From Hominimerdicola alba 8 (lineage in GTDB: Bacteria > Bacillota > Clostridia > Oscillospirales > Ruminococcaceae), in the NCBI RefSeq assembly GCF_000178155.2, contig NZ_ADKM02000075.1, positions 62,001 to 126,000 on the forward strand: a stretch of 64,000 nucleotides of DNA. The letters run 5' to 3'. Within the stretch, counting starts at the first letter, position 1. Every line of letters begins with the position of its first letter. Made by a program: the position numbers and the translations under genes. This document shows, in pieces, positions 1-63,415 of this stretch. Under the pieces are notes generated by a model, which was not told where the DNA came from, ran no database searches, and worked only from the letters and a program-made list of their open reading frames with translations.

Positions 1-2
1 TA

Positions 3-1160
3 CTCGCAGACAGGATATCCGCAGTGGTGGTATATAAGCTGGACAGACTTTCACGTTCGCAGAAAGACACAATATTTCTGCTGGAAGATGTGTTCATACC
101 CCATAACTGCGCCTTTATATCGCTGAACGAGAATTTCGATACCTCGACTCCGTACGGTAAGGCTATGATAGGAATACTGTCAGTGTTTGCACAGCTTGAA
201 AGGGAAAACATACGTGAACGTACCCGCATGGGCATGTATGAAAGAGTACGTTCGGGACTGTGGATGGGCGGCGGGCGTGTGCCTTTCGGGTATGACTATG
301 ACCGTGAGAAAAACAGGCTCGTACCAAATGAAAAGGCTGAACAGGTCAGGCAGATATATGACCTTTATCTGCAAGGCTATTCCACCACACAGCTTGCCGC
401 CATGTTCGATGTTTCGGGCGACCAGCATATCTCTGCCATTCTTGACAGGATGACCTATCTCGGAAAGATAAGTTTTCGCGGCGAGGTCATCGAGGGCACG
501 CACGAGCCGATAATTGATGAAGTCACATGGCTGAGGGTCCGGGAAGAGCGGAAGAAGCGCTCGAAAAACAGCGGCGGGCAGTCGGCATACCTTTTGACGG
601 GACTGCTGGTGTGCGGAAGGTGCGGCGCTAAGATGCGATATCAGAAATGGGGCAGGGGACTTAAGATATACTGCTACTCTCAGCAAAAGAGCAAGCCCTC
701 GCTGGTAAAAGACCCGAACTGTGACAATATCAGATATGATGCCCGCGAGGTCGAAGAACTGGTGGTGAAAGATGTCTTTGAAAAGACAAAAAATATTTCT
801 GCCGATAAGAACGGCGCTTCTGTGAATGTGACTGCAAGGCAGGTCTTAAAACAAAAATATGATGCCGCCGCCCGCAAGATAAAGCGCCTGTATGACCTGT
901 ATGCCAATGACGAGAACGAACTTCTGCTTGAAACCATAGAGGAGAACAAAAAACAACTCGCAGAGATAGCCGAAGCCATCAAAAGGGAGGAGAAAACAAA
1001 TTCAGCGGCACGCGAACTTGAGTACAGACGAAAAACACTCTATGACTTGTGCGGTCTGTGGGACGCAATGACGCTTACCGAACGTCAGCGTGCGCTGCGC
1101 ACCTGCATCGACAGGATAATACTTGACGGTGAAGATATAGATATAGTATACTCTCTGTGA
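3..1160 (+). CDS. Large serine recombinase (N-terminus outside window)
   Basis: Site-specific recombinase of the large serine (resolvase/invertase) family that integrates or excises mobile DNA. The frame is open from base 3 and already reads VVVYKLDRLSRS, the conserved second half of the resolvase catalytic domain, so the N-terminus with the active-site serine lies before the window. Next come the long helix around FAQLERENIRERTRMG, a Recombinase domain (VPFGYDYD... GYSTTQLA), a zinc-ribbon (CGRCGAKM, later cysteines in YCYSQ and DPNCDN) and a C-terminal coiled coil. The gene ends 21 bases before the point where sigG homology breaks off on the other strand. Large serine integrases normally sit next to their attachment site, so this is inferred to be the enzyme of the element interrupting sigG. 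Confidence 0.93.
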   Translation, partial: LADRISAVVVYKLDRLSRSQKDTIFLLEDVFIPHNCAFISLNENFDTSTPYGKAMIGILSVFAQLERENIRERTRMGMYERVRSGLWMGGGRVPFGYDYDREKNRLVPNEKAEQVRQIYDLYLQGYSTTQLAAMFDVSGDQHISAILDRMTYLGKISFRGEVIEGTHEPIIDEVTWLRVREERKKRSKNSGGQSAYLLTGLLVCGRCGAKMRYQKWGRGLKIYCYSQQKSKPSLVKDPNCDNIRYDAREVEELVVKDVFEKTKNISADKNGASVNVTARQVLKQKYDAAARKIKRLYDLYANDENELLLETIEENKKQLAEIAEAIKREEKTNSAARELEYRRKTLYDLCGLWDAMTLTERQRALRTCIDRIILDGEDIDIVYSL

Positions 1161-1181
1161 TTTTCGACTGCCCAATGCTGT

Positions 1182-1469
1182 TGGCACAGCGTAGGTAGAA
1201 AACTTAACATTCAGTCCAACATCAAAATTATCGATGGCTTTTATCAGCCCTACTACACCGACCTGAAAAAGGTCATCGGGACTTTCCTTGCCCGAAGAGA
1301 ACCGCTGGAGAACGCTCAGTACGAGCCGTAGGTTGCCTTTGATAAGTTCCTCTCTTGCATTTTTGTCGCCGCATGCTGTCCGCCTGAGAAGTTCCTGTTT
1401 TTCGTTTTCGGTCAGTACCCTGAGCGTACTCGTATTGACACCGCTTATCTCTACTTTGTTATACTGCAT
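1182..1469 (-). pseudogene. sigG: sigG, 5' part only (sporulation sigma factor G, interrupted)
   Basis: Forespore-specific RNA polymerase sigma factor SigG, N-terminal 96 codons. It starts MQYNKVEISGVNTSTLRVLT, the SigG-specific start, and continues through sigma region 2 (GNLRLVLSVLQRF, DDLFQVGVVGLIKAIDNFD, VKFSTYAVP). Full SigG is about 255-260 residues and goes on with an M-I-I-G-E-type sequence after STYAVP. Here homology stops at that proline (codon 1184-1182) and an unrelated tail follows. Start ATG 1469 has a GGAACGGAG ribosome site. The facing serine recombinase ends 21 bp past the break, so the gene is probably split by an integrated element whose far end, with regions 3-4 of SigG, lies left of the window. 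Whether it is dead or restored by excision cannot be seen here. Confidence 0.88.
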
Positions 1470-1617
1470 TTTTTACACTCCGTTCCTTTTTTATGGGAAT
1501 ATTTTTCCCGTTTTTCGGGAAAATATTCAACATTGTTCAAACAATAGTGTAAAGTGTCGGAAAAAGAAACAATTGTTATATGATATGACACTAATTGTAA
1601 AACTTTGTGCCGAAATA

Positions 1618-5028: not shown

Positions 5029-5068
5029 ATATACCTTATTGCAGAAAATGGGCATGATATATTTTTGA

Positions 5069-5109
5069 AAATAAGGCTGTGCGACCGAAATGGTCACACA
5101 GCCTTATTT
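5069..5109 (+). terminator. tsf operon terminator
   Basis: Stem AAATAAGGCTGTG(C)GACC / GGTC(A)CACAGCCTTATTT, 17 paired bases with one mismatch and a short GAAAT loop, followed by GTTGTATT. Family B copy 1 separates it from tsf. Confidence 0.75.
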
Positions 5110-5123
5110 GTTGTATTATTAAT

Positions 5124-5283
5124 CGTGGTTATCCCGCTGACACACCACAAAAACGGCGGTTTTACAGAACTTAAGGTGGTTGGCGTATATCTTTCCCCCG
5201 CCACAGGCGGGGGAAAGATATACAACGCTCAATTATCCTTTTGTTTACAGCATTTTCAGCTGGTGTGCTAAAGGGATAGTCAT
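5124..5283 (+). repeat. Family A element, copy 2 (160 bp, with GC-rich hairpin)
   Basis: Terminal repeats as in copy 1. Flanked by an exact 9-bp duplication ATTATTAAT at 5115-5123 and 5284-5292. The centre holds a perfect 15-bp stem, TATCTTTCCCCCGCC with its complement, at 5188-5220. The right duplication overlaps the stop codon of the CPBP gene. Confidence 0.93.
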
Positions 5284-62242: not shown

Positions 62243-63415
62243 ATGTTCAAATTTGTAATTTCTGAACTGGGCGTGCTGAAAGGACTTGTATTCTTCTATA
62301 TGGTCATATTCATTTCGCTGTATATCGTTATCACCGTTCTGCTTAATATTTCGGTATCCATTAACAGATATACGGATGACCTTATCAGCGAAAATACCAA
62401 AGGTCTTAGTTTCGATGTGACTTTCAGCTACAAAAAAGACACCGACCTCAGCGAGTTTGCAGATTTTATCGCTTTCGGTGATAAAAAGCTGATATACGGT
62501 GACGATACACTGAGGAACGTTACCATATCGGACGGCGTACATGAAACACAGCCTGCGGCAGGTACGGCAACTTCTTTTATATACGGACTCAGGGGCGTTA
62601 CAGAACGAAGGTCATATAAGTTTATAAGGCGCGGCAGCTACCCCGATCTGCTTGTACCCGAAAACAATAACGGCAAGATATGGATATCCGACAGACTCGC
62701 AAATGCAAGCGGGCTTGAACAGGGAAGCACTGTCAGCCTATGTTCGGAGCAGTTTAAAAACAGCCATGAACTTGAACTGGCGGGCATCTTCAAGCAAAAC
62801 TGCTGCGATGCCGATTTTCTAATGTCCTTTGACAGCTGCCTTGAGATATTGGACAGTGAAGGTTATTCAACAAGAACGCAGGTAACACTCTCCGCAGCAG
62901 ACTACAATAATTGCAGCAAGATGCTATCAAAAATACATGATATGGATATCAATGTATATTGTGATCTTTATGATACGATACAGTCAGAAGTCAGCATAGT
63001 GCGCATGGTGATGAATGTGCTGCTTTGTATCTGTATGGTCGTAGCTATATCATCGGCATTTATATCATTTTCGATGTCACAGCTGATAATACTCAGACGA
63101 AATTCTTCTATTGCCATGTACAAACTGCTGGGACTTTCTGCGGGCAGGCTGAAACTTATATATCTTATACTGACAGAGGGATTGGTGGCTGTATCATGTG
63201 CGGCGGCATTTTTACCTGCACGCAGGCTAACCTATTCGCTGGCAGATGAATACTGCGGCATGTTCGGGCTGAAAGACCTGAAAGTCGTACCGCCTGAGAG
63301 AACTTTTCCGCTGATACTGGTTCTTTGCAGTCTGTTCACGCTGGCGGGATTTTTCAAGGTGTTCTTTGCGATCGACAGAACATCTGAACTGGAAAATGTG
63401 AGGAAAAGCCGATGA
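62243..63415 (+). CDS. MacB/FtsX-like ABC permease, first subunit
   Basis: 390-residue permease. One N-terminal helix (GLVFFYMVIFISLYIVITVLL), a large extracellular domain (about 45-250) and three C-terminal helices (MNVLLCICMVVAISSAFISF, MYKLLGLSAGRLKLIYLILTEGL, FPLILVLCSLFTLAGFF), the FtsX-type plan of four helices. It starts one base after the ATPase stop and overlaps the next permease by 4 bases. Confidence 0.85.
   Translation: MFKFVISELGVLKGLVFFYMVIFISLYIVITVLLNISVSINRYTDDLISENTKGLSFDVTFSYKKDTDLSEFADFIAFGDKKLIYGDDTLRNVTISDGVHETQPAAGTATSFIYGLRGVTERRSYKFIRRGSYPDLLVPENNNGKIWISDRLANASGLEQGSTVSLCSEQFKNSHELELAGIFKQNCCDADFLMSFDSCLEILDSEGYSTRTQVTLSAADYNNCSKMLSKIHDMDINVYCDLYDTIQSEVSIVRMVMNVLLCICMVVAISSAFISFSMSQLIILRRNSSIAMYKLLGLSAGRLKLIYLILTEGLVAVSCAAAFLPARRLTYSLADEYCGMFGLKDLKVVPPERTFPLILVLCSLFTLAGFFKVFFAIDRTSELENVRKSR

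Follow-up and report, generated by a model that had tools for sequence, protein, structure and literature searches.

The 64,000-nucleotide stretch analyzed here (the window, bases 62001 to 126000 of contig C62, which measures 171,813 bp and belongs to a 4.05-Mb draft genome labeled G000) opens inside a gene for a large serine recombinase (LSR), beyond which lies only the first part of the sporulation gene sigG. The locus raises the question of whether sigG has been destroyed here or is interrupted by an element whose removal restores it. We favor the second answer and put at roughly 0.75 the probability that the feature is a sporulation gene-intervening (skin-like) element of 8,476 bp, inserted by its own LSR at the proline codon of the STYAVP motif of sigG. 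The gene is probably rejoined when needed, excision being inferred here and not observed.

The interrupted sigG gene

The SigG match of the 5' half (residues 1 to 96) stops at STYAVP, with the proline codon at window positions 1182 to 1184, the same end point that the initial annotation of this DNA had given. That annotation also had an LSR ending close to the sigG fragment and facing it, and the LSR stop codon is indeed just over 20 bases from the proline codon (Table 1). The enzyme is 456 amino acids long, starts at C62:61790, 211 bases to the left of the window, and runs toward the 5' half. From this arrangement an intervening element in sigG had been proposed, with the suggestion to look leftward of the window for the rest of the gene and at both junctions for a short repeat; each was recovered. 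A sigG profile search of the genome located the rest of the gene (model positions 90 to 252) at C62:54232-54717, on the same contig and strand. Both ends of the insert carry ACGCTGTGCCAA, which sets its size at 8,476 bp (C62:54705-63180). Further frameshifts in the 3' part would have refuted the proposal, and neither half shows a frameshift or an internal stop.

In silico removal of the insert joins STYAVP directly to MILGEIKRY and yields an unbroken SigG of 256 amino acids, which scores 387 bits against the 372-bit cut-off of the SigG equivalog NF006071 and falls short of the older TIGR02850 cut-off (373 versus 457). The element thus sits within the coding sequence of a sporulation-specific gene, whose remaining part is at its far end, and the break falls inside Sigma70 region 2 (residues 42 to 108 by Pfam). 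In-frame joining is not independent evidence for a functional arrangement, since any gene interrupted through LSR insertion would be expected to rejoin that way. A dispersed repeat flanks the sigG/rpsB/tsf block at window positions ~1691-1755 and ~5085-5230, where the ORFs 1651-1806 and 5065-5271 share VVIPLTHHKNGGFTELKVVGV.

When the ends of the element are joined, they form the quasi-palindrome TTTTCGACTGC..CC..GCAGTCGAAAA, which has the CC of the proline codon at its center. An LSR attP is expected to be laid out in this way (compare the accessible part of PMC5595907). The two core copies agree at CC in all eight split genomes of the genus (see below), and also at some other letters.

Table 1. 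Features of the split sigG locus, in window positions or positions of contig C62
Feature	Position	Strand	Remarks
12-bp core ACGCTGTGCCAA	C62:54705-54716 and 63181-63192 (= window 1181-1192)		Common to both junctions
3' half of sigG	C62:54226-54714	-	~8.5 kb left of the 5' half, same contig
LSR, residues after ~70 to stop	window 1..1160	+	Resolvase, Recombinase, Zn_ribbon_recom (Pfam)
Element-side att arm TTTTCGAC (GTCGAAAA in sigG sense)	window 1161..1168		Recurs in relatives
5' half of sigG, codons 1-96 (MQYNKVEISG...STYAVP)	window 1182-1469	-	Frame continues into element
Predicted crossover dinucleotide, CC on sigG strand	window 1183..1184		Center of reconstructed attP; inference
Sigma-F-like promoter upstream of 5' half (TGAATA, 14-base gap, GGGAAAAATA)	window 1500..1529	-	

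Adjoining the 3' half, in the + orientation of C62, the element carries a row of genes for an isochorismatase-type hydrolase (nicotinamidase-like by our reading), a PRPP-synthetase-like protein whose best NCBIfam match is below the cut-off, and a NAMPT-like protein (NF006629, above the cut-off). This NAD gene row is followed on the opposite strand by an MFS transporter and a GH2 mannosidase-type enzyme, then by a 43-amino-acid ORF overlapping the LSR start, and then by the LSR. Among the six larger ORFs (the hydrolase, the PRPP-synthetase-like and NAMPT-like proteins, the MFS transporter, the GH2 enzyme, and the LSR), searches with Pfam and NCBIfam only, PHROGs being left out, found no phage structural or replication genes, and the same two collections gave no relaxase or transfer genes of an integrative conjugative element. 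The whole 4.05-Mb genome has 21 matches to the serine Recombinase domain.

No directionality factor could be identified with confidence in the element. The obvious candidate, as yet untested, is the small ORF preceding the LSR: wherever the region upstream of the LSR can be read (six elements), it contains an ORF of 41 to 44 amino acids that terminates at the LSR start. The sequence of this ORF is poorly conserved, and the G000 copy has no Pfam match. At the att end opposite the LSR, similar-looking proteins (MTRKQAL.. and alike) are found in G079, G248, G019, L108, and L178, one of them with a weak HNH-repeat match and another with none; these are possible accessory or directionality factors. 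The small ORF and the LSR are preceded by a recurrent block of the type TGATTAT-N14-C[CA]ATAATA, a close variant of which occurs once in the 104 kb of the contig that were searched, at the LSR upstream site. The block can be read as a weak housekeeping promoter as well, and the spoIVA upstream regions compared for a sporulation-sigma promoter showed no common block; it was set aside as evidence for a sporulation-sigma promoter of the LSR.

Split and intact sigG among relatives

The comparison with relatives lacking the element, another check put forward at the outset, was made by searching 29 genomes of the genus with the joined SigG. The gene is in one piece in 20 of them, split in eight (G000, G003, G004, G008, G013, G018, G019, and G025), and without a match in one (G026, 76% complete). 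All eight breaks fall in the same proline codon, and all eight genes rejoin in frame at CC with no internal stop. Five split genomes have both halves on a single contig, with elements of 6,145 to 9,107 bp, while the contigs of the other three are broken inside the element. Judged by eye, the reconstructed attP sites are quasi-palindromes centered on CC, with TTTCGAC and GTCGAAA arms in seven of the eight and ATCGAAA as the right arm of G003. At E<=1e-60 the LSR is present in seven of the 29 genomes, and these are the ones in which the element splitting sigG carries the NAD genes as well. In G019, the eighth genome with a split, the element is a different one, to the extent that the broken contigs reveal it.

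NAMPT was detected in nine of the 29 genomes, namely these seven plus G002 and G023. The NAD salvage genes of the last two (L081 12586-16964, L080 6856-9785) directly follow an intact sigG in G023 and are far off, adjoining two tRNA-Ser genes, in G002. The latter, which we take to be R. albus 7, has an intact sigG with the same neighbors and no LSR at E<=1e-60. It falls among the split lineages (support 43 to 78), and its relocated NAD genes branch with those of G013, G003, and G004 (98 in the concatenation), which together suggest that G002 lost the element precisely. The element trees agree broadly with the host tree, with weak spots: those of the LSR, the MFS transporter, and the concatenated NAD genes recover (G000,G018) and (G003,G004), the LSR and concatenated NAD trees put G013 near G003/G004, and G008, G025, and G023 are placed with weak support. 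The single-gene NAMPT and NICase trees depart from the host tree with weak support.

Selection on both halves was estimated as dN/dS (NG86) in the 21 pairs of seven split genomes, leaving out G019. Finite values range from 0.026 to 0.101, and from 0.07 to 0.16 among five intact genomes. Many dS values are saturated, so the reliable pairs are the close ones, G003/G004 (0.056 and 0.044 for the halves) and G000/G018 (0.063 and 0.029). By this measure, purifying selection acts on both sigG halves in these seven split genomes. A TGAATA plus GGG block is kept upstream of the 5' half in eight of nine aligned genomes, split and intact, with GGTATA in G025; it looks like a sigma-F promoter, on the consensus that we assume for this factor.

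Beyond the genus, a family sample of 297 genomes, with a second look at 15 odd ones, contained at least two further clear splits at the same codon among the matches listed: G079 (element of 32.5 kb, LSR 54% identical) and G248 (27.6 kb, 35%). Three more candidates, G249, G051, and G037, were dropped because the contig ends inside sigG, and G132, where the 5' half with its arm is followed by the contig end, is left out of the proven splits. In a wide scan that took one genome for each species (84,980), two peptide patterns and an alignment of six LSRs yielded 126 relatives, and we retained the 80 best. A part of sigG (called at >=45% identity, or 35% for L112) lies within the fetched stretch at 59 of these best 80 of 126 loci, no more than 250 bp from the LSR in 48 and no more than 1,500 bp in 54; it is absent from the fetched stretch in the other 21, some of them on short contigs. 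These sigG-associated LSRs come from Ruminococcus, Agathobaculum, Butyricicoccus, Lachnospiraceae, and termite-gut Clostridia, in elements of ~2.6 to 90 kb, and on the LSR tree the sigG-labeled members are clustered without forming a single clade (14 changes, shuffled mean 22.4). Phages and plasmids have only remoter LSRs: the top phage-labeled match (64%) is a bacterial fragment arranged in the same way, the second match is at 40%, and a scan of viral contigs gave three remote matches of 23 to 29% identity. On the evidence of sequence and position, the LSR family mostly sits at sigG.

The halves of these distant splits also remain readable. Across the best 80 of 126 loci plus another ten stretches, every half in which the CC could be located is open, with 26 distinct 5' halves and 46 distinct 3' halves (from 27 and 47 stretches, respectively; two are repeats). 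A 5' half ending near residue 97 to 106 was found in 39 of the 49 genomes searched, which stand for 50 loci submitted, and is absent in 10. Each of 13 half pairs tested joins in frame without stops; four are Ruminococcus genomes already counted, and the nine from outside the genus include Agathobaculum massiliense, A. desmolans ATCC 43058, Butyricicoccus sp. Q5471, and [Ruminococcus] faecis JCM 15917. In Butyricicoccus faecihominis (L156) a second break gives the joined frame a foreign tail. The smallest element, 2,553 bp in a termite-gut member of the Defluviitaleaceae (L108), contains the LSR, genes for tRNA-Thr and tRNA-Trp, and a 185-amino-acid protein that weakly matches an HNH repeat. 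That of [Ruminococcus] faecis JCM 15917 (L113 / L178 / L188) reaches ~90 kb, codes for a MobA-type relaxase and, as we read it, ParA/ParB-like proteins, and comes directly after a sigma-70-family gene, by our reading sigE.

A different layout is found in the Agathobaculum/Butyricicoccus clade, with 19 members on the LSR tree. Core genes now stand between the sigG halves, and LSR, halves, and att arms persist. In L141 and L153 the LSR and the 3' half adjoin a phosphotransacetylase gene, with the 5' half in another place, next to an amidohydrolase gene; the phosphotransacetylase is found in L156 too, and the neighbors in L160 are others. Median dN/dS is 0.058 for the 3' halves (93 of 171 pairs with dS of 0.05 to 1.5) and 0.117 for the LSR (89 of 153 pairs, excluding L146 for its internal stop), and the att arms are conserved where adjacent bases are not (five 5' halves, nineteen 3' halves), in what is an apparent domestication of the LSR. 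In A. massiliense the halves are on one contig in direct orientation, ~112 kb apart, the 3' half first and with no Ns between them. A conserved excisable arc of 112 kb was rejected, since the arc is not syntenic in the compared parts of three other genomes, which leaves the A. massiliense contig as its only support. At five loci of the clade (L145, L151, L155, L156, and L160) the 3' half has a second break after HISQ. In L155 (11819-21144) the sigG tail lies 9.25 kb farther along, attached in frame behind another, different serine recombinase (568-amino-acid frame; Resolvase, Recombinase, and Zn ribbon), and sigG seems to be in three pieces.

Excision and its alternatives

Neither an excised circle nor a rejoined sigG was seen among the genomes, the phage-labeled record, and the viral contigs checked. 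The full-length sigG of G323, G335, and G365 was ruled out as the rejoined state, the copies differing from the halves; they are probably contigs of other organisms or another copy. MT839977.1 (L183; 5,918 bp, 'Bacteriophage sp.' in GenBank and marked UNVERIFIED) is an integrated copy, a bacterial chromosome fragment with the LSR and the sigG 3' half, and not a circle. Nine stretches of viral contigs fit the attP pattern, none with LSR or sigG, and are ascribed to chance.

In the mechanism that we propose, the LSR would recombine attL and attR at the CC dinucleotide, probably assisted by an element-encoded directionality factor, freeing a circle and rebuilding sigG, most likely in cells entering sporulation. 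Sigma-F-type transcription of the rebuilt gene would then supply complete SigG. Sigma-G acts in the forespore; hence, unlike that of skin, the excision would be heritable. The rebuilt gene would enter the spore, and the element would be lost from the lineage or re-integrate into attB after germination. Rejoining is probable because related LSRs occupy the same point of sigG in many gut bacteria and the halves are still readable. Excision during development has not been shown directly and is inferred from the conservation of halves, att sites, and LSR across many lineages. A sigma-G gate in a germ-line cell would make timed excision costlier than in the known cases, and this counts against it.

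The alternative that survives best is a rare stochastic excision resembling phase variation, in which only the minority of cells without the element in sigG completes sporulation, so that the insertion acts as a brake and not as a timed switch. We hold this to be possible, if on the whole unlikely. It would account for G002, where an intact sigG, no LSR, and an NAD operon elsewhere look as if the element had left, and the available part of one study suggests occasional forespore action of the recombinase as a possible explanation for skin loss in some C. difficile strains (PMC5025042). The conserved block upstream of the small ORF and the LSR points the other way, hinting weakly at regulation.

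Host sporulation itself is unproven. SASP genes were found in 22 of the 29 genomes of the genus, including seven of the eight split ones (not in G025), and SpoIVA in 28, including all eight. The SpoIIR profile matched none of the 29 (the B. subtilis control was positive). Because intact-sigG relatives also lack a detectable SpoIIR, its absence does not track the split, and it was rejected as an indicator that sporulation has been lost. The genus may have an unusual mode of sigma-E activation.

These data bear on another explanation, namely, that the insertion is parasitic and the lineage has ceased to sporulate, the sigG site being a mere attB and the halves undecayed relics. The initial annotation had left room for such a loss of sporulation, which is weakened by the purifying selection on both halves and by SASP and SpoIVA occurring in split as in intact genomes. 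It is not excluded: R. albus 7 appears, in the part of the source available, as a Spo0A+ non-spore-former with several genes missing (PMC3533761), SpoIIR is undetected throughout the genus, SASP is not found in G025, five Agathobaculum/Butyricicoccus loci have second breaks, and the L146 LSR has an internal stop. Against it stand the open halves without exception wherever CC can be located, the low dN/dS in clades where the split looks old, and the lack of SpoIIR where sigG is intact. We judge a parasitic insertion improbable. That the halves are translated separately as a split sigma factor, without excision, is very improbable: the Agathobaculum 3' half does start within ~25 bases of the LSR stop in the same direction, with an ATG created at the junction (MPMIIGE), and the halves there stand at separate core loci, but the break inside Sigma70 region 2 speaks against it and the conservation of LSR and att arms would be left unexplained.

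Returning to the intervening element excised by its own LSR, a bolder extension can be offered as a speculation that we consider doubtful. The serine recombinases devoted to sigG would constitute a germ-line sporulation gate in gut Clostridia, with sigG rebuilt in the forespore and the circle re-integrating after germination. In Agathobaculum and Butyricicoccus the LSR would have become a host gene with att sites in distant core loci, SigG being produced through a large programmed chromosome rearrangement. If this were true, the rearrangement in the single-contig genome would yield a circle of ~112 kb bearing the rebuilt sigG.

Comparison with known intervening elements

The arrangement makes testable the idea that bacteria decide who sporulates by a heritable, reversible DNA excision, and it may help explain gut Clostridia that have sporulation genes and are recorded as non-spore-formers. 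Genome surveys can miscall such a sigG as absent or broken. The LSR family also provides fifty or so related enzymes, perhaps more, that share a single conserved natural target.

The closest parallel is skin in sigK of Bacillus subtilis and Clostridioides difficile, where a sporulation sigma-factor gene is likewise split by an element with its own LSR and precise joining restores the frame. The differences are the target (sigG and not sigK, the forespore and not the mother cell) and the element, which here measures 8.5 kb and has no phage gene in those of its ORFs that were tested. Two other genes with such insertions, spsM and spoVFB, are mother-cell genes. SP-beta in spsM (PMC4191935), vfbin in spoVFB, and yin in yabG (PMC10747680) resemble the sigG element in lying inside sporulation genes and, where the accessible text describes them, in having serine recombinases; they differ in being prophages or prophage-like and in their other, mother-cell target genes. 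For C. difficile skin, excision needs a directionality factor, as stated in the portion of PMC5025042 at hand. The gin element in gerE of Bacillus cereus ATCC10987 is, like ours, a non-prophage intervening element with a junction inverted repeat and a short core (9 bp in gin, 12 bp in the sigG element). As far as the available part of its description goes, gin is 28.6 kb long, with three serine recombinases and an excision proven with GirC and GirX, whereas the sigG element has one LSR in 8.5 kb and its excision is inferred (PMC5595907).

Among the top matches compared with the LSR, the best-known phage integrase is that of Listeria A118, at 37% identity. A118, the comK prophage, is a case of active lysogeny, with gene-restoring excision followed by re-integration. 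This is the model that a germ-line target would need, although A118 is a phage and not connected to sporulation.

The genes sigK, spsM, spoVFB, gerE, and yabG serve the mother cell. Cutting the mother-cell chromosome costs nothing, because that cell dies. These five are the targets listed for gene-intervening elements in the parts of the sources available to us (PMC5595907, PMC10747680). No report of an intervening element or insertion in sigG was found in the open-access library searched, titles and the starts of abstracts included, and the main text of an LSR atlas, as far as it was accessible, does not name sigG (PMC10083194). Within the literature searched, then, the kind of element is known, and what is new is sigG as the target, the germ-line setting, the breadth of the LSR family, and its apparent domestication; the rearranged sigG is the first case that we have met in the forespore line, which becomes the spore.
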